Shown here piece by piece: positions 2,554 to 32,582 of a stretch of 34,750 bases of DNA. Positions within the stretch are counted from its first letter, which is position 1. Every line of letters begins with the position of its first letter. Source of the stretch: Acidobacteriota bacterium (GTDB lineage Bacteria; Acidobacteriota; UBA4820; DSQY01); NCBI GenBank assembly GCA_021787565.1, contig JAJYLT010000036.1:1-34750 (forward strand), in the 5' to 3' direction. The notes beneath the pieces are model-generated. The model was not told where the DNA came from, ran no database searches, and saw only the letters and a list, made by a program, of their open reading frames with translations. Both the position numbers and the translations under genes were made by a program.

Positions 2554-4353
2554 TCAGCGGTCTATCTCCTTGATTCTCTTGCGCATGGCGATGGCCCTTG
2601 GATCTCTCAGGCTGAGTGCCTGAGCCTTGTCCAGGTACGCCCGGCACCTCGCGAACAGCCCGTTGTTCAAGTAAAATTCTGCCAGATCCAGAAGGTACTC
2701 GATATCCCGGGGATCCAGCTCTATGGCCCGCTGGAATTCACGCTCGGCCATGTGCTTGGCGCGGCTGTTGGTGTTCTTCTCGTAGATCTTCGCCATCAGG
2801 TAGTGGGCCTGGGGCGAAAAACCGTCGTGGAAGAGCGCCAGCCTCAGGTGCTGGGAGGCATCGTGCCACTGCTCCTGGGCCATGCAGTCGATGGCCCGTC
2901 GCAGGCTGAGCTGGGCCTCCTGCTGGCGGTTCTCCGAGGTCCGCCTGAGCGCCGTGCCGGCCTGGGCCACCGGATTCGGGCCTCCCTCCGCCTCGGCGCT
3001 CTCCGCCTTTGCCTCAGCCTTGCGGTCTTCGATGTAGCGGTTCTGAAGGAGGAGAAGGGACTCCCCCATCTTGGCGGTCAGAAAAAAGAGTTCCTTCTGG
3101 TGCCTCTTGAACACTTCCGGATGCAGATTGGCCGGGCTGAGTCGCTCCTTCAGCGCCTCGTGCGCCTTCACCGCATCGGCCGGCGCACTGCCCGGGGGCA
3201 CACCGAGGACCTTGTATGGGCTGATCCCGGGGACTCTGAACGCCTGGACCAGGTTCTGGATGGCCTCCGACTGCCGCTGGATCAGGGCGGTCTCCTCATC
3301 AAGGCGGACGGCCAGGCCGGACAGCCGGAACGGCGGCTCCACGGCTGGCTCGCTGGCAAGGAGGCCGAGCAGGAGGAGCAGGTACACCCCGCCCAGGAGC
3401 TGCCTCCCAGGCAGAATTCCCGTCTGGAGCAGATCGGACACCGCCACCGGCTGCTGGCACTGCTGCAACAGGTAGCCGTGATGGGGCTGGATGGGCAGAT
3501 CTTCGGGAAGCACCTCCTCCACCCTGCTGACCTTGACGCCCGGCCGCTTGAGCACGGCCAGCCCCTCCTCCGGGATCTGGTCGACCAGCTGCACCAGGAG
3601 GGCGGGGATCTCGATCGGCAGGAGTCCCTCCGGGATGACCACCGGCTCCGACCGGCAGCGCATGGGAGCATGCAAGGGCAGGGACGCGAGCAAGGAGAGG
3701 GTGGCCTGTTGTTTGATGGGCGCCAAGGGGACCGACCGAGCCAGCCCCTCCTCCAGCTCCGCCAGATAGAGCTGTAGGTCCTCCCCCTGTTCGCCGCACT
3801 CCATGCCGGCGCCCAGGAGGCCCGACCGGTAGCGCTCCCAGTAGAGTGGATGGACCAGCGTCCAGAGCCTTCCCTCACCGAACAGGAGGTGCAGTTCACC
3901 GTCCTGCGTTTGAACGGCGACCCTCCGGTGCGTGAAATCCACGAAGCCCTCACCCAACGCCTCGATCAGGCTCACGCGCGCCGGGCCCACTGCCGCCATG
4001 AGGCGGGCCAGGGCCCGCCGGCACGAGGACTCGTCCAGGGGCCGCGGCAGGAGGACGGCCACCCCCGCGTCCCGAACGCGGGACTCCAACTCTTCCCCCA
4101 CTCCGGCGGCCGCCACGATGGCCACGGGGGGAAGATCGGGGAAGTGGCCCCTGGCCGTCCTCACGAAGGACAGCCCGTCCCACTGGCCGGCCAGCGTCAT
4201 GTCGGCCACGATGGCCGTCGGCCTGCAGTCGGCCAGGAACTCCATGGCCTGTGCCACCGTACCCCTCTCCTGGAGGTCCCAGGCCCTGGGAAGGGCCACC
4301 CGGAGGACCTTGAGGAGGTCCGAATCGCGCGTGAGAACGAAAAGCGTGTTCAT
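2554..4353 (-). CDS. Receiver / J-like / TPR protein coupled to RuBisCO
   Basis: The product is 599 residues. Residues 1-122 look like a response-regulator receiver. D10 and D12 sit in the acidic pocket and D51 (VADMT) is the likely phosphoacceptor, but the conserved Lys of the last strand is Arg104 (LLPRPLD), so phosphorylation may be impaired. A middle region (about 125-370) resembles the DUF4388-like segments of Acidobacteria/Myxococcota regulators. Near residue 380, SPYKVLGVPPGS begins a J-domain-like fold lacking the HPD motif. The C-terminus (about 460-599) carries TPR repeats. The ATG overlaps the RuBisCO stop codon in an ATGA arrangement, which indicates translational coupling. There is no output DNA-binding domain, so a scaffold or regulatory interaction is more likely than transcription control. 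The link to RuBisCO is inferred from position only. Confidence 0.7.
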   Translation of the reverse strand: MNTLFVLTRDSDLLKVLRVALPRAWDLQERGTVAQAMEFLADCRPTAIVADMTLAGQWDGLSFVRTARGHFPDLPPVAIVAAAGVGEELESRVRDAGVAVLLPRPLDESSCRRALARLMAAVGPARVSLIEALGEGFVDFTHRRVAVQTQDGELHLLFGEGRLWTLVHPLYWERYRSGLLGAGMECGEQGEDLQLYLAELEEGLARSVPLAPIKQQATLSLLASLPLHAPMRCRSEPVVIPEGLLPIEIPALLVQLVDQIPEEGLAVLKRPGVKVSRVEEVLPEDLPIQPHHGYLLQQCQQPVAVSDLLQTGILPGRQLLGGVYLLLLLGLLASEPAVEPPFRLSGLAVRLDEETALIQRQSEAIQNLVQAFRVPGISPYKVLGVPPGSAPADAVKAHEALKERLSPANLHPEVFKRHQKELFFLTAKMGESLLLLQNRYIEDRKAEAKAESAEAEGGPNPVAQAGTALRRTSENRQQEAQLSLRRAIDCMAQEQWHDASQHLRLALFHDGFSPQAHYLMAKIYEKNTNSRAKHMAEREFQRAIELDPRDIEYLLDLAEFYLNNGLFARCRAYLDKAQALSLRDPRAIAMRKRIKEIDR

Positions 4354-5627
4354 CCTTGTGCTTTCCAGAAGGCAAGGGCCGTCCGGAGCTCGGGGGCCGA
4401 CGAGGAGGCGCGTTCGAGGGTCAGTCCGGCGAGAACCGCCTCCACGGCCTGGCGGACGGCCTTCGTCCCCGCCGCGCTCCCGCCGGGATGGCCGTGGATA
4501 CCGCCGCCGAACTGGAGGATCACCTCCGGCCCGAACAGGGACATCAGATCCGGAACGTGCCCTGGGTGCAGGCCGCCCGAGGCGATGGGCATGGCGGGCA
4601 GGACGCCGCGCCAGTCCTGCCCGTCGGCCATCGTCCCATCCTCGGAGGGCCAGGCCCTCAGGGCCCGCGCCGAGCGCAGCACCGCCTCCCGGCTGCCCTC
4701 CATTTTTCCCACCGCCGTTCCCACGTGAAGCTGGTCGATACCTACGAGGCGCGCCGAGCGCGCGATCACCTCCATGGCGATCCCGTGCTCGGGTACGCGC
4801 GTGAAGGCCGCGTGCATGGCCCTGTGCCCGTGAAGGATCAATCCCATGCCGGCCCCGCGGAGGCTCTGGACCCCCGACCAGCCGGCCGTCACCAGGTCGA
4901 CCATGGCGAAGCGGCCGCCGAGGTGGGCCACGAGCCCCGTCCTCCTCAGCATGACCTCCGTGGGGGCGGTGACGTTGGGGATGTAGCCCTTCGCGTTACC
5001 GGTGGCGTCTTCCGCCCGCTTGGCCGCATCGAGGCAGGCCCGGAGCCGCTCCTCGAAGGGACAGAAGCTCTGGGAGGTGAGGTTCTCGTCGTCCTTGACC
5101 ACGTCGCAGCCCGCCGACATGGCCTCGTAGACCACCTGGGCTTGGGCCTTGGGATCCAAGCCGATCTTCGGCTTCACGATGGTGCCGACGAGGGGGCGGC
5201 CGGTGACGCCCAGGACTTCCCGGATACCCTGGATGCCCCTGGCTGGGCCTTGAAAGGAGGCGGCCACGGTTTTCGGGAAGCGCACGGCCTCGAGGCGCAG
5301 CCTCCGTACCTCCTTTATTCCAAAGATGTTGCCCGCCACCGACGAGAAGACCTGGGCCATGTTGCCGCCCTCGAAGAGCACGGCTCCGTAAGCGATGACC
5401 ACACCCCGATCGTCCGCGGCGAGGACGCGCGCCCTCAGCCTCTCCCGCAGCTCTGGAGTGAGGGCCGCCACGTCGGTCCAGGTGCCGATGGAGGACTCGG
5501 CGGCCAGGGCATTGGCGGCCCTTTCCAGGGAGGTGCCCACCTCCGGCTCCACGCGGAACCGGCAGATCAGGTCGTCCTCCAGCGGCTCGCCGCCCAGCTC
5601 CAGGTAGGGAAGCGCTTCCCCGGCCAT
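4350..5627 (-). CDS. RuBisCO large subunit, form III type
   Basis: The product is 425 residues and closely resembles archaeal form III RuBisCO, which carboxylates ribulose-1,5-bisphosphate to two 3-phosphoglycerates. The active-site set is present. AESSIGTWT is at 43-51 and AGNIFG at 98-103. VKPKIG carries K152 and K154. K178 is the carbamylated Lys in KDDEN, with D180 and E181 as Mg ligands. HGHRAMHAAFTR spans 266-277, with H268 and R269. H301 and K308 (VGKMEG) follow, then S350-GG and GGGIHGHP. Thr after ESS is replaced by Ile. No small-subunit gene or phosphoribulokinase is in the window, so the substrate presumably comes from nucleotides. The start has GGAGGA 5 nt upstream and follows the isomerase stop by 10 nt. 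Form III is assigned from motif similarity; a tree would be needed to fix the clade. Confidence 0.92.
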   Translation of the reverse strand: MAGEALPYLELGGEPLEDDLICRFRVEPEVGTSLERAANALAAESSIGTWTDVAALTPELRERLRARVLAADDRGVVIAYGAVLFEGGNMAQVFSSVAGNIFGIKEVRRLRLEAVRFPKTVAASFQGPARGIQGIREVLGVTGRPLVGTIVKPKIGLDPKAQAQVVYEAMSAGCDVVKDDENLTSQSFCPFEERLRACLDAAKRAEDATGNAKGYIPNVTAPTEVMLRRTGLVAHLGGRFAMVDLVTAGWSGVQSLRGAGMGLILHGHRAMHAAFTRVPEHGIAMEVIARSARLVGIDQLHVGTAVGKMEGSREAVLRSARALRAWPSEDGTMADGQDWRGVLPAMPIASGGLHPGHVPDLMSLFGPEVILQFGGGIHGHPGGSAAGTKAVRQAVEAVLAGLTLERASSSAPELRTALAFWKAQG

Positions 5628-5637
5628 CGCCGTCCTC

Positions 5638-6282
5638 CTACAAACGCCCTCGCGCGGGGGGCGCGGGCGGGCAGAGGGTCAGGACATCCTTCACGAGCCC
5701 CCTTTCGGTAATGAAGGCCGTCACGTACTTGAGGTGCACCTTGTCGAAGGCCGGGTTCAGGACCAGGACCCCGGCCGGCGCGTCGGGCCAAACCTCCGCC
5801 GGGTCCCGCTGCTCCACGGCCTCGTCGATGTGGTCCCGCACCACCTTGAGCGTGAGGGTGGCGCAGTAGGTGGGCACGTCGTACCGGCTCGCCACCACGC
5901 AGAAGATGCCCGTGCCCACCTTGTTGATGAGGTATCCCGATGGAAGCACGGCGTCGGCGCCGAAGAGGAACAGGTCCGCTCCGACGCGGGCCAGGGCCTC
6001 CTCGTCCCGGCGGACTTGCTCCAGCAACGCTCCGGCCCGCTCCCCCGGCTCCCCTGAGACATCCTCCTCTTCCACACTAGACAGGAAGAGCTCGAGGAGA
6101 TTTCTCAGCATGGGCTCGTTGGGGCGGGCCCCGGCGAGCAGTTCGGCCAGGGCGCGGCGGTCCGCGCGAGGCTCCACCGCCAGCTCCCCCGCCAGGGCCT
6201 CGACCGCCGCCTTGGCGATGGCGTTGGCGCCCTGGATCTCCAGGCTCCGAATGCGCGCGGCGGTAGTCTCCACGAGCCCCAC
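5638..6282 (-). CDS. Ribose-1,5-bisphosphate isomerase-like protein, internally shortened
   Basis: The 214-residue product belongs to the eIF2B/aIF2B family. The N-terminal helical part fits R15P isomerase (EIQGANAIAKAAVEAL at 15-30, RPNEPMLRNLL at 53-63). The C-terminal Rossmann part fits as well (FGADAVL at 107-113, INKVGT at 119-124, NPAFD at 176-180, ITERG at 191-195). Known family members are about 320 residues. The block that carries the catalytic Cys (the MTHCHS-type motif) is absent, because A98-R-V100 runs directly into G101-AD. The reading frame is intact, so this is a clean in-frame loss of roughly 80 residues. The start is GTG with GGGAGG about 8 nt upstream, 12 nt after the AMP-phosphorylase stop. 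It could be inactive, have a different activity, or be an assembly artefact. Confidence 0.75.
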   Translation of the reverse strand: MGLVETTAARIRSLEIQGANAIAKAAVEALAGELAVEPRADRRALAELLAGARPNEPMLRNLLELFLSSVEEEDVSGEPGERAGALLEQVRRDEEALARVGADLFLFGADAVLPSGYLINKVGTGIFCVVASRYDVPTYCATLTLKVVRDHIDEAVEQRDPAEVWPDAPAGVLVLNPAFDKVHLKYVTAFITERGLVKDVLTLCPPAPPARGRL

Positions 6283-6294
6283 GGGCGGTCCTCC

Positions 6295-7206
6295 CTACTG
6301 GATGACGATCATTTCCGGGTGCCGCTGCCAGTAATCCCATGCGAAGTGGGTGGATCCGGCGGCCTTCTTCTTGGAGAGGATGGAGGCGATCATCTGCCCC
6401 GGCGCGTCCATGTTCAGGGGACGCTCCACTCCGATAATGATGTCGTCGGCCGGGGAGAGGGCGAAGGAGCCGCCCCACGCGAGGCAGCCGTTCTCCCGTT
6501 CCACGATGGCCTTCAGGCGCTCCAGGCTCAGGGAGACCTCAGCCAGGGCCTCCATGGTATCCGCCGTGCCGGAGGGCGAGGTGATGGCCCTGGAGGAGGT
6601 TTTGGGAATCGTGAGCCCGTAGGCGGCCACGATGGGCACCACCACCATGGTCGTCCGGTTGCCCGGGACGCCGCCGATGCAGTGCTTGTCCACCACCATG
6701 TCGCGGCCCCACGCCAAGCTCTCTCCGGTGCCGGCCATGGCCTCGGCGAGGTAGACGATCTCGTCCCGATCCATGGCCCCCTGCGCGGTGGAGACCACGA
6801 AGGCCGTCAGCTCGACCTTGGAGTAGCGGTTCGAGACGATGTCCTGGACGATGTACCGGTAATCCTCCCGCCCGAGCACCTCCCCGCGGATCTTCTTGCG
6901 GATGAGCTCCACCGAGCGGACGGGGTCGGGATGGCGCACGTTCACCTCCGTGCCCTCGGGGAGGCCGAGCTTCTGGTAGGCGTACTCGCACAGGCCGATC
7001 TGGTCGGAGTCCAGGAAGGGCTCGTCCACCACGTCCAGGACCCCCACGATGCCGCGGCCGTTCGCCATGACCTCCACCTTCGAGAGGGCGCCGAACCCTT
7101 GCGCGCGGCAGAGGTCGCAGTCCCTCCGCAAGTAGAGGATGTATTCGCGGTACGTGTCGATCTTCAGCCTCTTGATGCGCAACTTCGTTTCCCCTGGTCC
7201 CGGCAT
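6295..7206 (-). CDS. deoA: AMP phosphorylase-like protein lacking the C-terminal domain
   Basis: The product resembles archaeal AMP phosphorylase, which releases adenine and forms ribose-1,5-bisphosphate. It carries the N-terminal archaeal-type extension (LRIKRLKIDTYREY), the helical domain (REDYRYIVQDIVSNRYSKVE), the phosphate-binding loop DKHCIGGVPGNRTT and the TSSRAITSPSGTADTMEAL block. Archaeal enzymes are about 500 residues. This one stops about 300 residues in, right after SKKKAAGSTH, and ends with a short unrelated tail (FAWDYWQRHPEMIVIQ). The next gene starts 12 nt later, so there is no room for the missing domain. Start choices are ATG 7206, which has no clear ribosome site, or TTG 7182, which has AGGGG 8 nt upstream; the TTG is quite plausible. 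The gene symbol is for the family; activity is unproven. Confidence 0.75.
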   Translation of the reverse strand: MPGPGETKLRIKRLKIDTYREYILYLRRDCDLCRAQGFGALSKVEVMANGRGIVGVLDVVDEPFLDSDQIGLCEYAYQKLGLPEGTEVNVRHPDPVRSVELIRKKIRGEVLGREDYRYIVQDIVSNRYSKVELTAFVVSTAQGAMDRDEIVYLAEAMAGTGESLAWGRDMVVDKHCIGGVPGNRTTMVVVPIVAAYGLTIPKTSSRAITSPSGTADTMEALAEVSLSLERLKAIVERENGCLAWGGSFALSPADDIIIGVERPLNMDAPGQMIASILSKKKAAGSTHFAWDYWQRHPEMIVIQ

Positions 7207-7228
7207 GCCTGCAATAGAATGCCCTTCC

Positions 7229-7234
7229 ATTATA
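7229..7234 (-). promoter_or_regulatory. Candidate -10 element (TATAAT) of the AMP/RuBisCO operon
   Basis: A perfect TATAAT stands alone in very G+C-rich DNA upstream of the AMP-phosphorylase gene. No good -35 is visible 16-18 nt upstream, so the promoter may need an activator. Transcription from about 7222 would leave a leader of about 16 nt to ATG 7206 or about 40 nt to TTG 7182; the second is the more usual length. Confidence 0.45.
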
Positions 7235-7323
7235 CACAAGCCGCCCCGCCCGTGCGGCTGGCTCCGGTTGGAAATCGTACGGCACGAGACGATCACCCCC
7301 TCGCCCGATGGTCCAAACCCCTC

Positions 7324-23202: not shown

Positions 23203-23790
23203 CTAGCCCTCCCACCACGGCTCTTCGAGGAACCGGTAGGCGCCGCGGTTGGCGATGAGGTGGGACTGGACGGGAAGCAGGACGCTCACTTCCCGAAGGC
23301 CGTTCTCGCGCAGGGTGCCGCCCGTGTCCACGAGGTCCACGATGGCGTCCGAGAGTCCAAGCAGGGGGGCCAGCTCCACGGAGGAGGTGACCCGGATGAA
23401 GCGCACCCAGAGGCCCCGGGCGGCGAGGAGCCTCTCGGCGGTGCGGGGGTACTTGGTGGCCACGCGCAGCGGCGTCTGGCCGGGCACGGTCTCACTCCCC
23501 ACCGGAGCGGCCAGGCTCAGGCGGCAGCGGCCGAAGGGGAGGTCCCGGAGGTCGTAGGCGTCGGGCCGGTCCTCCTCCAGGACGTCCGAGCCCACGATGC
23601 CGAGGTCCGCCGCGCCGTTCTGGACGAAGACGGCCACGTCGGGGCCCTTGAGCAGCACGGCCTCCCAGCCGCGTCCGAGGGGCAGGCAGAGGGCCCTGCC
23701 GGCCAGGTCGGGCCGGGTGAACCCCTTCTCTGAAAGCCATGCCAGGGCTGGCTCCAGCAGGCGGCCCTTGGTCAGCGCGATGCGGGGCAT
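23203..23790 (-). CDS. hisG: ATP phosphoribosyltransferase, short form
   Basis: The product is 195 residues, the short HisG that lacks the C-terminal regulatory domain and works in a hetero-octamer with HisZ. It catalyses the first step of histidine synthesis. Motifs include RIALTKGRLLEPAL, FVQNGAADLGIVGSDVLEE, RVATKYPRTAERLL, and IVDLVDTGGTLRENGL in the PRPP loop. The ATG overlaps the hisZ stop by 1 nt. It is the last gene of the operon, although its enzyme acts first. Confidence 0.95.
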   Translation of the reverse strand: MPRIALTKGRLLEPALAWLSEKGFTRPDLAGRALCLPLGRGWEAVLLKGPDVAVFVQNGAADLGIVGSDVLEEDRPDAYDLRDLPFGRCRLSLAAPVGSETVPGQTPLRVATKYPRTAERLLAARGLWVRFIRVTSSVELAPLLGLSDAIVDLVDTGGTLRENGLREVSVLLPVQSHLIANRGAYRFLEEPWWEG

Positions 23791-24791
23791 CAGCCCCCTC
23801 CTTCCGTGCCCGGCCCGGACGGGCGGCCCCGCTCCACCTCCAGCAGCCTGTCCAGGTGGAGGGCGAAGCCGCAGGCGCCGAAGGGGCGTGCGAGGGCGGG
23901 GTAGAGCGAGTCGTAGCGGCCGCCAGAGAGGAGGGCGAAGGGGTGGCGCCGGCTGAAGGCCTTGAGCGTCAGGCCGGTGTAGTAGCTCCAGTGGCGCACG
24001 TCGGTGGGGTCGAGGCGCACCGGCAGTCCGGGGAAGGCCTTCTCCAGCGCGGCCGCGAGGGACCGGAGCTCCCGCCACGCGCCCAGGACCCCGGCCGCGC
24101 CGAGGTCCGCCGCCAGGCTCTCCACCGCCTCCGGCCTTCCTCCCAGGTGGAGGAGGCGCACGAGGAGCCGCGCCTCCGCGCACTCCCCGTGCCGTCCTAC
24201 CAGAGACTCCAGGGCGGACCGGCTCTTCCGGTTGAGGGCCTGCTCCAGCTCCTCGCGCGCCGCCTCCGGCCACGGCAGGCGCTCCATCAGCGGGCCCACG
24301 AGCCCCCAGTGGCCCAGCTCCAGGACCGCGTCCCCGATGCCGAGGGCCGCCAGGCTCCCCGCGGCCAGCAGGGCCACCTCCTCGTCGCCCTCCGGTCCCG
24401 CCAGCGGCGAGAGCCGCTCGCAGCCCGCCTGGAAGGTCTCGATCTCCTCGGGGCGGTCGGCCGCGGGACGGCGCGCCACCGTCCCCTCGTAGCAGAGGCG
24501 CTGCGGCCCGTCGAGGCACTCCAGGCGCCGCGCGGCCATGAGGGCCACGCCGGCCGTGAAGTCGGCGCGCAGCGCCAGAGGACCCTCGCCGTTGGCGTCC
24601 AGGCGGAGGGTCCGCGAGGCCAGGGCCTCGGGCGAGGCGGCCCGGACCGGAGCCGCGGGAAGCAGGAGCGGGGGAACGACCTCGGCGTAGCCCTCTCCGG
24701 CCCAGAGTTCCAGGAGGGCGCGCTCCATGCGGCGCAGCCGGGCGGCATCCGCCGTCCACAGACCTGGGCTCAGGGCCCCGGCGGCGCTCAC
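23790..24791 (-). CDS. hisZ: ATP phosphoribosyltransferase regulatory subunit
   Basis: The product is 333 residues, a histidyl-tRNA-synthetase-like protein without tRNA-charging activity that gives short HisG its activity and histidine feedback. It has class-II motif 2 (LCYEGTVARR), the histidine-site segment WSYYTGLTLKAF, and the motif-3-like ARPFGACGFALHLDRLLE. It is shorter than true HisS and lacks the anticodon-binding domain. The start is GTG 24791, with GGGAGG 6 nt upstream and overlapping the hisIE stop (GTGA). Position next to hisG supports the assignment. Confidence 0.9.
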   Translation of the reverse strand: MSAAGALSPGLWTADAARLRRMERALLELWAGEGYAEVVPPLLLPAAPVRAASPEALASRTLRLDANGEGPLALRADFTAGVALMAARRLECLDGPQRLCYEGTVARRPAADRPEEIETFQAGCERLSPLAGPEGDEEVALLAAGSLAALGIGDAVLELGHWGLVGPLMERLPWPEAAREELEQALNRKSRSALESLVGRHGECAEARLLVRLLHLGGRPEAVESLAADLGAAGVLGAWRELRSLAAALEKAFPGLPVRLDPTDVRHWSYYTGLTLKAFSRRHPFALLSGGRYDSLYPALARPFGACGFALHLDRLLEVERGRPSGPGTEGGG

Positions 24792-25393
24792 CGCGAACCT
24801 CCCGCCCGGCGATCGAGCTCCGCCAGCACGTCGGCCAGCGCCACACCCCGGTCGGCCCAAAGGACCATCAGGTGGTAGAGGAGGTCGGCAGACTCGGCCG
24901 TCAGGGCCTTCCTATCCTGGGCGAGGGCGGCCACCACCGTCTCCACGGCCTCCTCGCCCACCTTCTGGGCGATTCGGGCCTTCCCGGCCGAGAGGAGCCG
25001 CACGGTGTAGGAGCCCTCCGGCCTCTCGGCCTTCCGGCCGGCCACCGTGGCTTCGAGGCGGAGGAGCGTTCCCGCCCCTGCGGCGCCCCAAAGACTCTCG
25101 AAGAAGCAGCTCGGCGCCCCCGTGTGGCAGGTGGGGCCCGAGGGACGAACGGCCACGAGCAGGGCGTCTCCGTCGCAGTCGGCGCTCACGCCCACCACCT
25201 CGTGCACGTGGCCCGAGCTCTCTCCCTTGCGCCAGAGCCTGTTCCGGGAGCGCGAGTGGAGGTGGAGTTCCCCGGTTTCACGCGTCTTCTCGTAGGCCTC
25301 CCGGTCCATGTAGCCGAGCATCCTCACCTCGCCCGTCAGCGTCTCCTGGACCACGGCGGGCACGAGCGGAGTCTTGTCGAAGTCGGGCCTCAC
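24788..25393 (-). CDS. hisIE: Bifunctional phosphoribosyl-AMP cyclohydrolase / phosphoribosyl-ATP pyrophosphatase
   Basis: The product is 201 residues. The N-terminal HisI half contains [33 protein letters not shown] and the zinc-linked [11 protein letters not shown] with [10 protein letters not shown]. The C-terminal HisE half has the helical MazG-like [11 protein letters not shown] and [12 protein letters not shown]. Together they carry out steps 2 and 3. The start is GTG 25393, overlapping the hisF stop (GTGA), with GGAGG about 7 nt upstream. Confidence 0.95.
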
Positions 25394-26139
25394 AGCCGCA
25401 CCTCCTGGCCCCACCGAGCGAGGGCCTGCTTCAGATCGGGAATGGAGAGCCTGCCCTCATGGAAGAGGGAGGCGGCGAGGACCGCGTCGGCGCCCGCCTC
25501 GAGCGCGTCGCGGAAGTGCTCCAGGGAGCCGGCGCCGCCCGAGGCGATCACGGGAAGCCGCGTGGCGCGCGCGAGGGCCCGGTAGAGGGCGCAGTCGAAC
25601 CCCTCCCTCGTCCCGTCGGCGTCCATGGAGGTCACGAGGAGCTCACCCGCCCCCAGCCCCTCGGCGCGCGCCGCCCATTCGACGGCGTCCACCCCCGTGG
25701 GCCGCGTCCCCGCGCGGGTCACCACCTCCCAGCCTCCACCCGGCCTCCGGCGCGCATCGATGGCAAGCACCACGCACTGGCAGCCGAAGCGTTCGGCGGC
25801 CTCGGCCAGCAGATCGGGCCTCTCCACGGCGGCCGAGTTCACCGCCACCTTGTCGGCGCCCGCCATGAGCGTCTCCCGCATGGCGGCGACGCTCCCCACG
25901 CCGCCCCCCGCCGTGACCGGCAGGAAGACCCGCTCGGCCACCCGCTCCAGGATGGAGAGGAGAGGGCGCCGGCCTTCCACGGTGGCGCTCACATCCAGAA
26001 AGACGAGCTCGTCGGCACCCTCCGCGTCGTACCGGACGGCCAGCTCCACGGGGTCGCCCGCGGGGCGGAGGCCCTCGAAGCGGACGCCCTTCACCACTCC
26101 GGTCTCCTTGACGTCGAGGCACGCGATCACGCGCTTCAT
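25390..26139 (-). CDS. hisF: Imidazole glycerol phosphate synthase, cyclase subunit
   Basis: The product is 249 residues, a TIM barrel that closes the imidazole ring with ammonia from HisH. The catalytic Asp residues are in ACLDV (N-terminus) and AIDARR (mid-protein). Phosphate-binding loops TAGGGVGS and IASGGAGS are present. The ATG overlaps the hisA stop in an ATGA arrangement. Confidence 0.97.
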
Positions 26140-26849
26140 GGCTGGTACTCCGCGAGCACGGACGGCTTCACCGCCCCCTCGTACAGGGCCCGGCCCACCA
26201 CGGCCCCGGCTATTCCGGGCAGCGAGGCCAGGGCCCGCAGGTCGGTCTCGGAGCGCACGCCGCCCGATGCGATACAGGCGGCGCCCTCGGGCAGCTCCCC
26301 GTAGAGCGCCAGGTTGGGGCCCGCCATCACGCCGTCCCGCTCGATGTCCGTCACGAGCACCTCCCCGTAGCCCATCTCTGCCGCCATGGCCATGGCCTCG
26401 CCCAGGCCCGCTCCCGCGTCGGCGCGCCAGCCCGAGACCTTCACGCGCCCCCGGAGGACGTCCAGCGCCGCCACACAGCGAGCCGATCCCAGCGCCGAGG
26501 CCAGCCGGCCCGCCTCGGCCCTGTCGCGGAAAAGCAGGCTTCCCGCCACCACCCGCGAGGCGCCCGCCTCCGCCAGGCGCAGGGCGTCGCCGGCGGAGCC
26601 GACCCCTCCTCCCGCCTGAAGCGCCAGCCCCGGCCAGCGCCCCGACGCCAGGCGAAGAAGGGGAGGAAGCGACGGCGCCCCGCCGAAAGCCGCTCCCAGG
26701 TCCACCAGGTGCAGAGACCGAAGCCCCGCCTCGGCCCAGCGGGCCACCGCATCGATCGCCTCGCCATAGTCCGTGGCGGCCTCCCTCCGCCCCTGCCTGA
26801 GGCGCACGGCCCGCCCCTCCAGCACGTCCACCGCGGCCCAGGCGATCAT
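26136..26849 (-). CDS. hisA: ProFAR isomerase
   Basis: The product is 237 residues, a TIM barrel (1-(5-phosphoribosyl)-5-[(5-phosphoribosylamino)methylideneamino]imidazole-4-carboxamide isomerase). The catalytic Asp residues are in AAVDVLEG near the start and LVTDIERDG. Phosphate loops AGGGVGS and ASGGVRS are present. The opening [16 protein letters not shown] differs mildly from the usual PAIDL(I/L)xGxxVRL. The ATG overlaps the hisH stop (ATGA). Confidence 0.95.
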
Positions 26850-27433
26850 CCTTCGCCTCCCAGGAGCGTCTTCAGGTAGGCGATACCCGGCTGCTGCGAC
26901 TTTTCCGGGTGGAACTGGACGCCCACGAGACTCCCCCGGCGGACGACGGCGGGGAAGGGCTCGGGGTGGTCGGCCCACGCGGTCACCACCCCTTCCTCCT
27001 CCGGCCGGACGGCGTAGGAGTGGACAAAGTAGGCCCAGGGAGGGACTGGCTCGTCTCCCGTGGGGCGCAGGCGCGACCAGCCGATGTGCGGCACTTTGGC
27101 GGCCGAGGCATCCAGGCGCCGCACCGTTCCCCGGATGAATCCAAGTCCTACGGCCCCGGGACTCTCCTCGGAGCGTTCGAAGAGAAGCTGGAGGCCCAGG
27201 CAGATGCCCACGATCCGGCTCCCGGCCGCGGCCGCCCGCGTGAGGTAGGAGCGCCAGCCGCGCTCGTCGAGCGCGCGCACGGCGTGGCCGAAGGCGCCCA
27301 CCCCGGGCAGGACGAGGCAGGCCTCGTCTTCGCGCGGCGGCTCCTGGAGCACCCGGGACTCCAGCCCCAGGGCCGATAGGGCGTTGCTGAGCGAGCGCAG
27401 GTTGCCGGTGCCGGCGTCGATGATGGTGACCAT
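26846..27433 (-). CDS. hisH: Imidazole glycerol phosphate synthase, glutaminase subunit
   Basis: The product is 195 residues, a class-I glutamine amidotransferase. It has the opening [16 protein letters not shown], the oxyanion PGVGAFGHA, the nucleophile Cys in [10 protein letters not shown] and the His-Glu pair in QFHPEKSQ. It passes ammonia to HisF. The ATG overlaps the hisB stop by 1 nt. Confidence 0.97.
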
Positions 27434-27996
27434 CAGAGCGTTCCCTTCGTGCTGCGGGCGCTCCTGCCCTTCACGGCCAGCGCCTGGGCCATGGCCAGGG
27501 CCAGCGCCTTGAAGGCCGCCTCCACGGCGTGGTGGCCGTTCTCGGCCCGCAGCACGTCCAGGTGGAGGGTGAAGCGGCCGGCCATGGCCAGGGAGCGGAA
27601 GAAGTGCGGCACCATCTCCGAGGGAAGCTCACCGATCATGGGCGGCAGTGGCGGAAGGGTCAGTTCGCAGTGGGGGCGGCGGACCAGGTCCACGACCGCC
27701 CGAGCCAGGGCCTCGTCCAGCGGGGCGTAGGCCCAACCGAAGCGGTGGAGGCCCGCGCGGTCGCCCAGCGCCTCGTCCATGGCCTCGCCGAGGGCCAGGG
27801 CCACGTCCTCGGCGGTGTGGTGGGCGTCCACCCGGAGATCCCCGTCGGCCTTCAGTCGCAGGCCGAAGCCTCCGTGAAAGGTCCACGATTCGAGCACGTG
27901 GTCCAGGAAGCCGATGCCCGTCTCCACGCGGGCGGGCCCCTTTCCGCGGGCCTTCCACTCCACCTCCACGAGGGTTTCTCCGGTTCTGCGGATCAT
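27433..27996 (-). CDS. hisB: Imidazoleglycerol-phosphate dehydratase
   Basis: The product is 187 residues, a monofunctional dehydratase. Metal-binding motifs are GFLDHVL, DAHHTAEDVA, the FFRSLA region and NGHHAVEAAFKA. There is no N-terminal histidinol-phosphatase domain as in enteric HisB, so that step must be done by another protein, most plausibly the HAD protein encoded just upstream. The ATG overlaps the HAD stop (ATGA). Confidence 0.96.
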   Translation of the reverse strand: MIRRTGETLVEVEWKARGKGPARVETGIGFLDHVLESWTFHGGFGLRLKADGDLRVDAHHTAEDVALALGEAMDEALGDRAGLHRFGWAYAPLDEALARAVVDLVRRPHCELTLPPLPPMIGELPSEMVPHFFRSLAMAGRFTLHLDVLRAENGHHAVEAAFKALALAMAQALAVKGRSARSTKGTL

Positions 27997-28838
27997 GGCT
28001 CTTCCTCCTTCATCCAGATCAGGACGTCGCGAAGCGAGGGCCGCACGGCGTCAGCCCCTTCGGCGCGAAGCCTTCGCTCCGCCTCGCCGCCATCGGGGGC
28101 CACGCCCGCGAAGCGCACCGCGAGGCCGGCCGCCCGGGCGGCCCGCGCCGAGCCCAGGTCGTCCACCGTGTCGCCCACGTGCAGCGGGCGGCGGGCGCCC
28201 AGCGCCTCGGCCAACACGAGCAGCCCGTCGGGGCCGGGCTTGCGGAAGCGCGGCTCGGAGTCACACACCAGCCGCTCCGGCGGCAGGACGAGCCCGAGGC
28301 GATCGAGCCCCAACCCCGCCTCCTCGCGGGTGCGGCCCGTGAAGATCCCGAAGGGAAGGCCCGCTTCCAGAAGCTCGGCCGGGGTGGCCAAAGGGACCTC
28401 CTCCTCGTGGAGGCCGCGCCTCTCCGAGGGCTCCAGGCCGTAGAGCTCGAAGGCCCTCGGGCCGGCGTAGAGGCGCTGGAAGACGGGCTCCACCTCCCGC
28501 CTGGCCCGCTCCCAGCACTCAACTCCCGCCAGCGTCCGCACCGCGTCGGGGCCGCCGCCTCTCCGCGAGAGCTCTTCGCAGAGCTCGTTCCACGTGGGGC
28601 CAGGCCGGCTGAGCGGCCCCAGCAGGCACAGCGCGGCGGCGGCGTCCCAGTCGTTGTTGAAGCCGCCCGCCAGCCTCAGCCGCTCCACCTCGACCGTCGT
28701 CCACTCCTCGCCCAGGCCGGGCCGGTCCGCGCAGGCGCGGGCCGAGAGAAGCGTGGCCAGGGTGAAGCTGCGCCGGGTGTCCAGGAGGACGCCGTCCATG
28801 TCCAGGATCAGGGCGTCGAAATCCTTGGCCGGAGTCAC
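27993..28838 (-). CDS. HAD-family phosphatase, candidate histidinol-phosphatase
   Basis: The product is 281 residues, a subfamily IA haloacid-dehalogenase-like hydrolase. Motif I is DMDGVLLD (D13, D15), motif II FTGRT, motif III the Lys in FRKPGPDG and motif IV HVGDTVDD. A long helical cap lies between motifs I and II and includes GGFNNDWDAA. The start is GTG 28838 with GGAGG 7 nt upstream, overlapping the hisC stop (GTGA). It lies between hisC and hisB, exactly where a histidinol-phosphate phosphatase would act, and no other such enzyme is encoded in the operon. A HAD clade of this type is known next to or fused with histidine genes in some genomes. The activity is inference. Confidence 0.75.
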   Translation of the reverse strand: MTPAKDFDALILDMDGVLLDTRRSFTLATLLSARACADRPGLGEEWTTVEVERLRLAGGFNNDWDAAAALCLLGPLSRPGPTWNELCEELSRRGGGPDAVRTLAGVECWERARREVEPVFQRLYAGPRAFELYGLEPSERRGLHEEEVPLATPAELLEAGLPFGIFTGRTREEAGLGLDRLGLVLPPERLVCDSEPRFRKPGPDGLLVLAEALGARRPLHVGDTVDDLGSARAARAAGLAVRFAGVAPDGGEAERRLRAEGADAVRPSLRDVLIWMKEEEP

Positions 28839-29896
28839 GACAGCACCTCCGACAGGGCCTTCACCACCGCCTCGTTCTCCTCGGGCGTCCCCACGCTCAG
28901 GCGCAGACACCCCTCCAGCATGGGATAGCGGGAGACGTCGCGGACCAGGACGCCTCGCGCCTTCAGCTCGGCATGAACCTGGCCGGCCTCGCGTCCCGCC
29001 AGACGCACCAGGAGAAAGTTGGCCTCCGAGGGATACGCGGCGAGCCCCGGAAGGCGCCGCAGGGCCGCGCTCAGGCGCTCCCGTTCCGCCACGATACGTC
29101 GCACCCTCTCCTCGAACCATCCGGCGTGCCCGAGGGCGAGGGCGCCCAGGCCCGCCGTGAGGGGACTCACGTTGTAGGGGAGGAGGGCCTTGCGGAGCTG
29201 GATCGCCGCGGACGGCACCGCCATGGCGTACCCCAGCCTCAGGCCGGCCCCGGCCCACGCCTTGGAGAAGGTCCGCAGGACCACCAGGTTCTCCCGTCGT
29301 GGCAGCAGCCTGCGGGCGCTCTTCTCCCCCGAGAACTCGGCGTAGGCCTCGTCCACCACCACGAGGCCGGGGGCCTCGTCCAGCAGGGCATCCAGGTCAC
29401 CGGCGGGGAAACAGTTGCCCGTGGGGTTGTTGGGCGAGCAGAGGAGGAGCACCTCCGGCGCTTCGCGTCTCACGGCCGCGCGCCAGGCCGGCGGATCGTA
29501 GGCCAGGTCGGGGGCCATGGGCACGTCCAGGGCCCTCGCGCCGCACAGGAGCGCCAGTTGGCCATAGAGAGCGAAGGACGGCGAAGGCAGGCACACCGTC
29601 CGCCGCGGACCCAGGGCGGCCAGGAAGAGGGCCTGGAGGAGCTCGTTGGAGCCGTTGCCCACCAGCACCGAGCCCGGTTCGAGCCCCCACCGGTCCTCGA
29701 GGGCGGCGGTCAGGGCCGCCTCGTCGAAGGGAGGGTAGCGGTGGAAAGCCGTGGCCTCCACCAGGCGGACCGCTTCCTCCTTGAACTCGGCGGGCCAGTC
29801 CCAGGGGGCCTCGTTCTGGTTGACCTTGACGGAGAATACGCCCTCGCGCATGGTGTAGGCCGCCAGGGCCTCCACCTCCGGTTTGAAGCGGCTCAC
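28835..29896 (-). CDS. hisC: Histidinol-phosphate aminotransferase
   Basis: The product is 353 residues, a fold-type I PLP enzyme. VKVNQNEAPWDWP and HRYPPFD form the substrate entry. VGNGSNELLQAL binds the phosphate, CSPNNPTG is the cofactor loop and VVVDEAYAEFSG follows. The PLP Lys is in RTFSKAWAGAGLRLGYA, and the C-terminal VRDVSRYPMLEGCLRLSVGTPEENE is typical. The start is GTG 29896, overlapping the hisD stop (GTGA), with GAGGAGG 8 nt upstream. Confidence 0.96.
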   Translation of the reverse strand: MSRFKPEVEALAAYTMREGVFSVKVNQNEAPWDWPAEFKEEAVRLVEATAFHRYPPFDEAALTAALEDRWGLEPGSVLVGNGSNELLQALFLAALGPRRTVCLPSPSFALYGQLALLCGARALDVPMAPDLAYDPPAWRAAVRREAPEVLLLCSPNNPTGNCFPAGDLDALLDEAPGLVVVDEAYAEFSGEKSARRLLPRRENLVVLRTFSKAWAGAGLRLGYAMAVPSAAIQLRKALLPYNVSPLTAGLGALALGHAGWFEERVRRIVAERERLSAALRRLPGLAAYPSEANFLLVRLAGREAGQVHAELKARGVLVRDVSRYPMLEGCLRLSVGTPEENEAVVKALSEVLS

Positions 29897-31209
29897 GACA
29901 CGCCTCCTCGGACTCGAAGGGACGCGGCGTGGCCGCAGAGCCCCTCCGCCTCGGCCAAAAGCTCCATCCATCCGGACATGGCCTCGAAGGCCCGCCGGTC
30001 CAGGGAGAGGTAGGACTGGCACCGCACGAAGTCCCAGACCCCGACGGGGGAGGAGAACCGGGCCGTGCCTCCCGTGGGGAGACTGTGGTTGGGCCCCGCC
30101 CCGTAATCGCCCGCCGCTTCCGGCGTCCACCGGCCGAGGAAGACCGCCGCGGCGGAGGGCACCGCCTCGGCCCAAGCCTCCGGCTCCTCCACCTGCACGC
30201 TGAGGTGTTCGGGAGCCAGACATTCGGCGGCCGCGCAGGCCGCGGCCCGGCTGCCGCACGCGATGAGCGCGCCCCTGGCCTTCAGGCTCTCCCGCTGGAT
30301 GGCCTCGCGGGGAGAGGATTCCAGGCGGCGTTCGAGCTCGCCGAGGACCCGCTCGGGCTCCTCCGGATCGGTGGTCAGGAGGACGGCCGAGGCCGCGGCG
30401 TCATGCTCCGCCTGGGCCAGGAGGTCGGCGGCCACCCAGGCGGCGGGCGAGGAGCCATCGGAGAGGATGACGAGCTCGGTGGGACCCGCGATCGCGTCGA
30501 TGCCAACCCGGCCGAAGAGTTGGCGCTTGGCCTCGGCCACGTAGGCGTTGCCTGGGCCGACGATCTTGTCCACGGGCGGAATGGACGGGGTGCCGAAGGC
30601 CAGGGCCGCGACGGCCGCCGCACCGCCCACGGCGTAGACCTCCTCCAGCCCGAGGAGGGCGGCGGCGGCCAGCACCGCGCGGTTCGGCAGGCCCTCCGGC
30701 CTGGCGGGCGAGGCCACGGCGATGCGCCCCACGCCGGCGATCTGGGCGGGGATGGCGAGCATCAGGAGAGTCGAGGGGTAGGCCGCCCTCCCACCCGGAA
30801 CGTACAGCCCGACGGAGCCCAGGGGGAGCGTCCTCGCGCCGGCGCGCAGGCCTCCGGCCTCCAGCGGGGCGCAGGAGGCGGGGCGCTGCCCCTCGTGGAA
30901 GCGCCGAATCGAGCGGGCCGCCTCCTTCAGGGCCTCGCGCAGGGCGGCCGGCAGGGAGCGGGCGGCCCCCTCCAGTTCTCGCGCGGGAACGCGCAGGGCC
31001 GACGCTTCGGGACAGGGCCAGTCGTGGGCGCGCACGGCCTCCAACACGGCCTCGTCGCCACGCGCCCTCACCTCGGCGAGCGTGCGGCGAACCGAATCGG
31101 CCGCGGTGGAAGGCGTCGCCGCCTCCGTCCGTAGGGAGGCGAGCGTCGCGGATACCTCCGCCTCGCTCCCCAGCTTCAGCACCCTCATCTCCAGCGATCG
31201 TCCGGTCAT
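29893..31209 (-). CDS. hisD: Histidinol dehydrogenase
   Basis: The product is 438 residues and performs the last two oxidations to histidine. It contains VGLYVPGGRAAYPSTLLMLAIPA, the NAD region DKIVGPGNAYVAEAK, AGPTELVIL, the zinc ligands in QAEHDAAA and the catalytic Glu-His in APEHLSVQ. It ends with AGDYGAGPNHSLPTGGTARFSSPV. The start at 31209 has GAGGAG 6 nt upstream; ATG 31188 is a weaker option. It is the first structural gene of the operon and lies directly after the attenuator terminator. Confidence 0.97.
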   Translation of the reverse strand: MTGRSLEMRVLKLGSEAEVSATLASLRTEAATPSTAADSVRRTLAEVRARGDEAVLEAVRAHDWPCPEASALRVPARELEGAARSLPAALREALKEAARSIRRFHEGQRPASCAPLEAGGLRAGARTLPLGSVGLYVPGGRAAYPSTLLMLAIPAQIAGVGRIAVASPARPEGLPNRAVLAAAALLGLEEVYAVGGAAAVAALAFGTPSIPPVDKIVGPGNAYVAEAKRQLFGRVGIDAIAGPTELVILSDGSSPAAWVAADLLAQAEHDAAASAVLLTTDPEEPERVLGELERRLESSPREAIQRESLKARGALIACGSRAAACAAAECLAPEHLSVQVEEPEAWAEAVPSAAAVFLGRWTPEAAGDYGAGPNHSLPTGGTARFSSPVGVWDFVRCQSYLSLDRRAFEAMSGWMELLAEAEGLCGHAASLRVRGGVS

Positions 31210-31224: not shown

Positions 31225-31256
31225 ACAACAAAAAAGCCCTCCGTCTCCGGAGGGCT
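31225..31256 (-). terminator. Attenuator terminator of the histidine operon
   Basis: The stem AGCCCTCCG / CGGAGGGCT (31248-31256 with 31235-31243) is a perfect 9-bp pairing around a 4-base loop. It is followed on the minus strand by a run of T at 31230-31235 and TGTTGT. It lies between the leader peptide stop and the hisD ribosome-binding site. Confidence 0.9.
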
Positions 31257-31331
31257 CTGTTTCTGCCGCGTGGACCGCCGTCACACAGCGGGCCCGCACC
31301 CTCCGGCCGCAGAGATCCCGTGATGGTGATG
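31247..31331 (-). promoter_or_regulatory. Histidine attenuator: His codons and antiterminator pairing
   Basis: Bases 31299-31306, in the leader peptide a few codons after the His run (31320-31331), are perfectly complementary over 8 bp to 31247-31254, the upstream arm and first loop base of the terminator. A ribosome stalled at the His codons would leave this segment free to pair and prevent the terminator. A ribosome reaching the stop codon (31281-31283) would cover it. An upstream CCTCC in the leader (codons 8-10) can pair with the same GGAGG, matching the 1:2 pairing of classical attenuators. The base pairs are seen; the regulation is inferred. Confidence 0.85.
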
Positions 31332-31367
31332 GAGGATCGGGAGGACGGCGGAGAGGCGGCTGGCCAT
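31281..31367 (-). CDS. hisL: Histidine operon leader peptide
   Basis: This small reading frame encodes 28 residues starting MASRLSAVLPIL, then four consecutive His residues (codons 13-16, CAT CAC CAT CAC), then GISAAGG and a stop at 31281-31283. AAGGAG lies 6 nt before the ATG. It sits between a strong promoter and the attenuator terminator, 72 nt upstream of hisD. Four His in a row is hard to explain by chance in this position. The peptide itself is probably degraded; its translation senses charged tRNA-His. Confidence 0.9.
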   Translation of the reverse strand: MASRLSAVLPILHHHHGISAAGGCGPAV

Positions 31368-31371
31368 GAAC

Positions 31372-31388
31372 GGCTCCTTCAAGGAGCC
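31372..31388. promoter_or_regulatory. Palindrome over the transcription start and leader ribosome site
   Basis: GGCTCCTT and AAGGAGCC flank one central base, a perfect 17-base palindrome. It covers the predicted transcription start (about 31384) and the AAGGAG of the leader peptide. Because transcription would begin inside it, an RNA hairpin would be incomplete, so a DNA operator is the better reading. It may also be fortuitous, since AAGGAG is required for translation. Confidence 0.45.
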
Positions 31389-31390
31389 AG

Positions 31391-31420
31391 TTTATACACC
31401 GGCGGGATAGGCCTTGTCAA
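31391..31420 (-). promoter_or_regulatory. Promoter of the histidine operon
   Basis: The -35 is TTGACA (31415-31420), the -10 is TATAAA (31391-31396) and the spacer is 18 bp. The predicted start is near 31384, 17 nt before the leader peptide ATG. Confidence 0.85.
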
Positions 31421-31436
31421 GCGGACGAAGGAAACC

Positions 31437-31585
31437 CCGATTCCGCGATAGCGGCTCAACGCCTGCGTAGGAGCGGCGCCTCGCCGCGAACCGGGTGACC
31501 CTGCGACCAGGATGCGGTGCCCGCGTACGGTCCGTCGCGCCGGGGGCGGCGCTCCTACGAGTGCAATTCCATCGCGGAATTTGGG
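31437..31585. repeat. Dispersed palindromic modules (copy D)
   Basis: CGTAGGAGCGGCGCC near 31469 is mirrored by GGCGGCGCTCCTACG near 31546-31560. Outside them, GATTCCGCGAT (31439-31449) and AATTCCATCGCGGAATT (31565-31581) are the module-1 edge seen at 20496 and 22966. The pair of inverted arms recalls the REP doublets (BIMEs) of Pseudomonas and Xanthomonas. Confidence 0.7.
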
Positions 31586-31648: not shown

Positions 31649-31993
31649 ATGGCTTCCCGCCACAAGCGCCCGATCTCGGGCACGGCCGTGTTGCTCTTCC
31701 TGCTCCTCTCGGCCTGCTCGCTCCTGCCCGTCAAGATCGCCGACATCAAGGCCCACCCCGACCGATTCGAGAACAGGACCGTGACGGTGCGAGGCAAGGT
31801 CACCTCCGTGACCAAGATGCCCTTCATGACGGAGGGCTTCTTCACGCTCGATGACGGCTCTGGCGAGATCACCGTGACCACCTCCGGCGCCCTGCCCGCC
31901 GAAGGGCAGGAGCGCACCGTCACGGGGAAGGTCCAGACCGCGCTCAAGATCTTGGACAAACACGTGGGGCTGGTGATCCGGGAGAACCCCTGA
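31649..31993 (+). CDS. Small lipoprotein with OB-like fold
   Basis: The product is 114 residues. A positively charged N-terminus and a hydrophobic run lead to the lipobox LLSAC, so Cys at about position 23 would be lipidated. The mature part (VTVRGKVTSVTKMPFM, GFFTLDDGSGEITVTT, GQERTVTGKVQTAL) has the five-strand pattern of an OB fold of the tRNA-anti/bOB type. Such small lipoproteins are often uncharacterised envelope proteins. The ATG has AAGGAGG 7-8 nt upstream; a longer frame upstream runs through repeats. No partner gene indicates its function. Confidence 0.75.
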   Translation: MASRHKRPISGTAVLLFLLLSACSLLPVKIADIKAHPDRFENRTVTVRGKVTSVTKMPFMTEGFFTLDDGSGEITVTTSGALPAEGQERTVTGKVQTALKILDKHVGLVIRENP

Positions 31994-32518: not shown

Positions 32519-32582
32519 AGTTGAGAAGTTGAGAAGTTGAGAAGTTGAGAAGTTGAGGAGCTGAGAAGTTGAGGAGTTGAGG
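32519..32582. repeat. Tandem octamer array (AGTTGAGA) at a stop codon
   Basis: Eight consecutive units of AGTTGAGA (four perfect, then AGTTGAGG and AGCTGAGA variants) start at the base after the DUF302 stop codon and run for 64 bases without interruption. Confidence 0.95.

Follow-up and report, generated by a model that had tools for sequence, protein, structure and literature searches.

Does a bacterium that stands far from the Gammaproteobacteria use a leader peptide to decide when to make histidine? The question is raised by a short stretch of DNA ahead of hisD, on the minus strand of a window of 34,750 nucleotides (by the window we mean the whole stretch of DNA that was analyzed). Our answer is that this leader is very likely a ribosome-mediated transcription attenuator of the his operon, built from four RNA regions. 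The case rests on which elements are present, how they are spaced, how well they are conserved and how regions 2 and 3 change together; from these we infer the stalling, the timing, the premature termination and the response to histidine. A sequence-only reading of the same DNA had already picked out the His codons, the terminator with its U run and the pairing of the antiterminator strands, and had the coordinates of all three right. It had also allowed for a genome from a distant phylum, and so it turned out: the genome is not gammaproteobacterial and is very probably from the Acidobacteriota. Its own assembly lacks 16S, and the phylum was judged from relatives: the 16S of G037 contains the HoAc1402 probe sequence without a mismatch, and that of G004 with one.

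The leader and the operon behind it

Read directly from the sequence, the parts of the leader follow one another as promoter-like site, leader ORF, antiterminator strands, terminator and hisD (Table 1). A strict promoter scan reported no promoter, because the second hexamer is TATAAA, without the final T. Promoter-like sites stand at the matching place in all four relatives from the family (TTGACA/TATATG, TTGACC/CATACT in two of them, and TTGACG/TACACA). A ribosome site precedes the leader ORF, and the codons repeated within it specify the very amino acid that the operon makes. Between the last His codon and region 2 lie 13 nt, and from the start of region 2 it is 23 nt to the stop codon; CCGGAGGG is perfectly complementary, over 8 bp, to CCCTCCGG within region 3. 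The antiterminator strand sits just 3' of where a ribosome stalled on the His codons would be, competes for the 5' arm of the terminator, and changes together with it.

Table 1. Features of the his leader and operon in the window, with the trpE and tyrA leaders of the same genome
Feature	Position	Strand	Content	Basis
Promoter-like site	31391..31420	-	TTGACA (31420-31415), 18 nt, TATAAA (31396-31391)	sequence
Leader peptide ORF	31281..31367	-	28 aa, MASRLSAVLPILHHHHGISAAGGCGPAV; AAGGAG before ATG 31367; TGA 31283-31281	sequence
Sensing codons	31320..31331	-	four His: CAT CAC CAT CAC	sequence and relatives
Region 1 (protector)	31310..31365	-	can pair with region 2 when untranslated	predicted minimum-energy fold
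Region 2	31299..31306	-	CCGGAGGG, antiterminator 5' strand, within leader ORF	sequence
Region 3	31247..31256	-	AGCCCTCCGG, terminator 5' arm; contains CCCTCCGG (31254-31247), antiterminator 3' strand	sequence
Region 4 and U tract	31230..31243	-	CGGAGGGCT (31243-31235) and U tract (31235-31230), terminator 3' arm and tail	sequence, terminator scan
Intrinsic terminator	31256-31235	-	AGCCCTCCG GAGA CGGAGGGCT, six T at T31235-T31230	sequence
hisD	29896..31209	-	first operon gene, ATG 31209	Pfam PF00815 Histidinol_dh, E 1.6e-142
Rest of his operon	23203..29896	-	hisC to hisG	Pfam
hisC	29896-28835	-		Pfam
HAD hydrolase	28838-27993	-	candidate histidinol-phosphatase	inferred from place
hisB	27996-27433	-		Pfam
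hisH	27433-26846	-		Pfam
hisA	26849-26136	-		Pfam
hisF	26139-25390	-		Pfam
hisIE	25414-24788	-		Pfam
hisZ	24860-23790	-		Pfam
hisG	23790-23203	-		Pfam
trpE attenuator, own genome	G000:C5:252-335 (L138)		leader ending MNYWWYAGLGVRERMAAA, WW	covariance model match
tyrA attenuator (chorismate mutase/prephenate dehydrogenase), own genome	G000:C2:84976-85114 (L136)		MALQNFAYLYYYAPAPPPPAP, YYY	covariance model match

The intrinsic terminator lies between the leader ORF and hisD. Its hairpin has an energy of about -21 kcal/mol and occurs only once in its own genome. A terminator scan found two sites where shuffles would give 0.2. Both are the one hairpin, read on either strand, and the site on the minus strand has 11 pairs and a T tail. 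Directly after the leader comes a complete ten-gene operon, hisD-hisC-HAD hydrolase-hisB-hisH-hisA-hisF-hisIE-hisZ-hisG, in which the HAD protein matches TIGR01548 below its cut-off, so its role is taken from its place.

Could the operon be under some other control, such as a T-box, a repressor or the sequestering of the ribosome site of hisD? T-boxes and HisR do this work in Firmicutes (PMC9413887), which gives the idea some precedent. The T-box model found no match in the window or the leader region, no other Rfam family matched at the leader, and the ribosome site of hisD lies downstream of the U tract, outside the terminator hairpin. We regard this explanation as highly improbable.

Three candidates near the leader were tried and rejected. 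The hairpin GGCTCC-TTGAA-GGAGCC just before the leader was set aside because it is missing in the sister species and lies partly 5' of the likely start of transcription. An in-frame GTG at 31299 might have extended hisD; that frame is closed in one relative (G005), so we put it down to chance. Finally, each genus can form a hairpin around the leader stop codon, for which covariation was considered, and we make no claim for it because it does barely better than shuffles (z only -0.5 to -1.4).

The window holds other things that caught our eye. Just upstream of the his promoter, at 31466-31559, is one copy of a palindromic element of about 94 bp, whose ends are inverted copies of CGTAGGAGCGSCG set 81 bp apart. 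This end sequence occurs 237 times in its own genome, against 6 for a backwards control, and not once in the same-genus G001, in G002 or in G004; the counts point to a REP- or MITE-like repeat that multiplied recently and in this species alone. At 32519-32581, directly 3' of a DUF302 gene, the 8-bp unit AGTTGAGA is repeated about eight times. Farther off, at 4350-7296 on the minus strand, proteins like the RuBisCO large chain, the IF-2B family (resembling ribose-1,5-bisphosphate isomerase) and nucleoside/AMP phosphorylases stand in a row, a trio that resembles the archaeal-type AMP pathway, though in a bacterium.

Conservation, co-change and a proposed mechanism

The family sample had nine genomes, five of them with hisD (that of the window and four relatives). 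All five carry the His codons, the terminator and the complementary antiterminator strand, which is what the sequence-only reading had proposed to look for in relatives. The leader peptides of the four relatives (MASRLCAVLAILHHHHGISAAGGCGPAV, MANQTFGRFTCKHHRGFHGGAGGCASAA, MANQTFGRFTCKHHLGFHGGARGCASAA and MSARPSVLFTHLHHHGTGATGGRAAA) show that between genera almost everything differs save the His cluster and a Gly-Gly, the latter kept because region 2 dictates it. The spacing is far steadier than the peptide: from region 2 to the stop codon is 23, 23, 23, 23 and 20 nt in the five genomes, and from the stop codon to region 3 is 29, 29, 28, 28 and 28 nt. A search with the window's own protein found no hisD in G003, G006 or G008, which make up genus g3 of the same family, nor in the genomes of the sister family f2; it is possible that histidine synthesis has been lost in these close relatives.

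The two strands of the antiterminator change together. Across 34 leaders, shuffling the spacer weakens its pairing with the 5' arm of the terminator (mean z -1.48, combined -8.6, the sequences being related and so not independent). When arms were swapped at random among 29 genomes with different arms, the leaders' own pairings summed to -491 kcal/mol against -406.5 (sd 12.9) for the swaps, a z of -6.55, and none of 5000 permutations did as well. At single loci the antiterminator z is mostly weak, about -1 to -2 and near zero in G038 and G187, an effect of the GC-rich DNA. The median distance from the last His codon to the start of region 2 is 14-15.5 nt (two His anchors were used), which is about one ribosome footprint; the scan began 8 nt past the codons, a choice that bounds the shortest distances. 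In 31 of 32 leaders region 2 lies before the stop codon. The rule for these leaders is simple: His codons, about 14 nt, then the antiterminator strand.

How might such a leader work? Transcription would begin near 31384 and a ribosome would start on the 28-codon leader. Were His-tRNA scarce, the ribosome would stall at the four His codons, covering region 1, with its footprint ending just short of region 2. Region 2, left free, would pair with region 3 as it is made, no terminator would form, and hisD to hisG would be transcribed. Were His-tRNA plentiful, the ribosome would move on over region 2, a part of the ORF, leaving regions 3 and 4 to form the terminator. With no translation at all, the 1:2 and 3:4 pairings would both form and the operon would be off. 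Once at the stop codon, a ribosome covers no more than the margin of region 2 with its rear; the outcome would therefore be settled during its passage over region 2, or by 1:2 pairing that forms anew.

Folding in silico is consistent with these states. With the ribosome at the His codons and the 3' arm not yet made, regions 2 and 3 pair in all five family genomes (shifted in G002, weaker in G005); with the ribosome at the stop codon, all five form the terminator. The whole free RNA is predicted to form the 1:2 pairing together with the terminator. This protector pairing, which joins CCGGAGGG to the stretch of the leader ORF that precedes the His codons, had no place in the sequence-only reading, and its exact pairs vary among the predicted folds of the relatives.

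Relatives of the leader in the phylum and at other operons

PF00815 is present in 134 of 197 genomes of the phylum. Our survey took 80 his loci, with up to 4.5 kb upstream of hisD for each, and asked for a small ORF that contains a His run and has a strong hairpin and a T run after it. Such a pair was found on the coding strand at 29 of the 80 and on the opposite strand at none. The other 19 amino acids, put through the same two-strand test, show no such bias (the largest are R, 10 vs 7, and A, 9 vs 4). Among the 29, the match in G109 is doubtful, and that in G064 is probably chance and was dropped as a his leader, being about 3.5 kb away from hisD and nowhere near hisG.

Every one of the 29 loci with the order hisIE-hisG-hisD, which span eight families, carries a His-run leader directly ahead of hisIE. 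Of these leaders, 25 satisfy the strict terminator rule; those of G033, G175, G025 and G171 were counted by eye. Among hisZ-hisG-hisD loci, 3 of 11 pass the scan. All these counts are lower bounds, because many operon starts may lie beyond the stretch that was fetched. The hisD-bearing named genomes, all from other phyla, had no convincing His leader near hisD. In two members of family f15 (L186 of G025 and L187 of G171) the His-run leader and hairpin before hisIE are followed by a poor U tract; there, the part of the intrinsic terminator may be taken by Rho or by translational control.

The two-strand count bears on another explanation, in which the hairpin simply ends a transcript from upstream, as any terminator would, and the His-rich ORF is a chance frame. 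The hairpin is strong and generic-looking, and small ORFs are common in GC-rich DNA. Yet the gene upstream of the leader (31649-31993, plus strand) points away from hisD, so there is no minus-strand transcript needing an end here; the 29 vs 0 imbalance is specific to His; and relatives, for all the differences in their peptides, keep both the His run and its spacing. We give this explanation next to no credence. The claim of a complete, translation-coupled attenuator is supported, with every element conserved in the family and at no fewer than 27 further his loci of the phylum. A leader so widespread must be old in the phylum or have been gained there repeatedly. The sequence-only reading had offered 'independent or much older' for a distant phylum; the spread answers this in part.

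A covariance model made from the five his leaders and searched through the family brought in further leaders: WW or WWW before trpE, YYY before chorismate mutase/prephenate dehydrogenase, FFYNY before a gene of that type in G004, and Trp-rich peptides before a TrpB-like gene (NF009057) in G001, G002, G007 and G005. In the window's own genome the codons agree with the operon product, WW for trpE and YYY for tyrA, and the trpE antiterminator sets GGGCTGGGTG against CACCCGGCCC. Elsewhere in the phylum the weak matches to the model were mostly plain terminators, the exception being a trpE leader of like build in family f6 (L154, G031). Leu and Ilv attenuators were not seen at the leuA-like and ilvB loci of the own genome. 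At G000:C40:36773-37085 (L264) the TrpB-like gene is a broken remnant with no Trp leader; the same-genus G001 keeps both gene and leader.

That the product might be a small His-rich protein, for instance one that binds metal, with regulation incidental, has in its favor a good ribosome site and an ORF conserved in the family, but is scarcely credible given that outside the His run the peptides share nearly nothing between genera, that an NCBIfam search gave no family match, and that in the sister operons the run turns to Trp or Tyr, tracking the operon product.

The 18-base terminator CCCTCCGGARACGGRGGG is present in seven copies across the nine genomes of the family, every one of them at a his or a trpB2 leader. 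The module was therefore probably copied between the two operons, or both descend from one.

Known leaders compared

The mechanism itself is classical, of the textbook class. Gammaproteobacterial hisL (Rfam RF00514) is alike in having a His-run leader peptide, an antiterminator and a U-tailed terminator before a his operon, and the hisL of E. coli was recovered with the same kind of scan. Searched with RF00514, the window yielded nothing at the gathering threshold, and neither did the leader region up to E 10 or ten other loci of the phylum up to E 1; homology with hisL is no more than a possibility. Rfam RF01859, Phe_leader, gave a weak match to 31331-31228 (21.4 bits, E 0.26, far below the gathering score of 55, and a resemblance between leader terminators only). 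The his leader of E. coli has six pairing regions, A-F, and a peptide of 16 residues with seven His. In the window four regions suffice, region 2 is inside the ORF, and hisD, not hisG, comes first in the operon of this family.

Published His leaders come from Proteobacteria and several lineages of Firmicutes (PMC9413887, PMC2965389), the latter being the B. cereus group, Peptostreptococcaceae and Erysipelotrichales (PMC9413887) and, for hisZ/hisS, bacilli (PMC2965389). Set beside the window's leader by description, those of the Firmicutes are alike in having three to five consecutive His codons, a terminator and an antiterminator, and lineage-specific sequences without similarity to RF00514; they differ in phylum and operon layout. 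For Acidobacteria, the literature covered, which did not include the possibly overlapping Lopatovskaya et al. 2010 (cited in PMC4833913), says only that attenuators are predicted, without function (PMC2965389), and that there are leader genes (PMC4833913). What is new here is the wide range of the His attenuator within what is very probably the Acidobacteriota, its use at several operons, and the antiterminator strand inside the leader ORF.

An attenuator of the Acidobacteriota thereby gains a probable function, histidine sensing, and the type proves common in the phylum, with Trp and Tyr versions. Whether leader-peptide attenuation is ancient or was invented repeatedly can now be tested with one more group in addition to Proteobacteria, Firmicutes and Actinobacteria, and the leaders offer readable sensors of the amino-acid state in abundant, little studied soil bacteria. 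We also entertain, as a tentative idea that could well be wrong, that the Acidobacteriota evolved an attenuator lineage of their own, separately from the Proteobacteria, and that this lineage has the antiterminator strand in the ORF and a his/trpB2 module that was copied with only the His and Trp codons changed.

Trp attenuators have been described in Actinobacteria, along with others (PMC1262725), and share with that of E. coli the four-region logic of 1:2, 2:3 and 3:4 that we propose for the window, where the sensing codon is His instead. Their direct counterparts are the trpE and trpB2 leaders of the window's own family. In the trp leader of E. coli the second region is found no earlier than the leader stop codon; in the window it precedes the stop.
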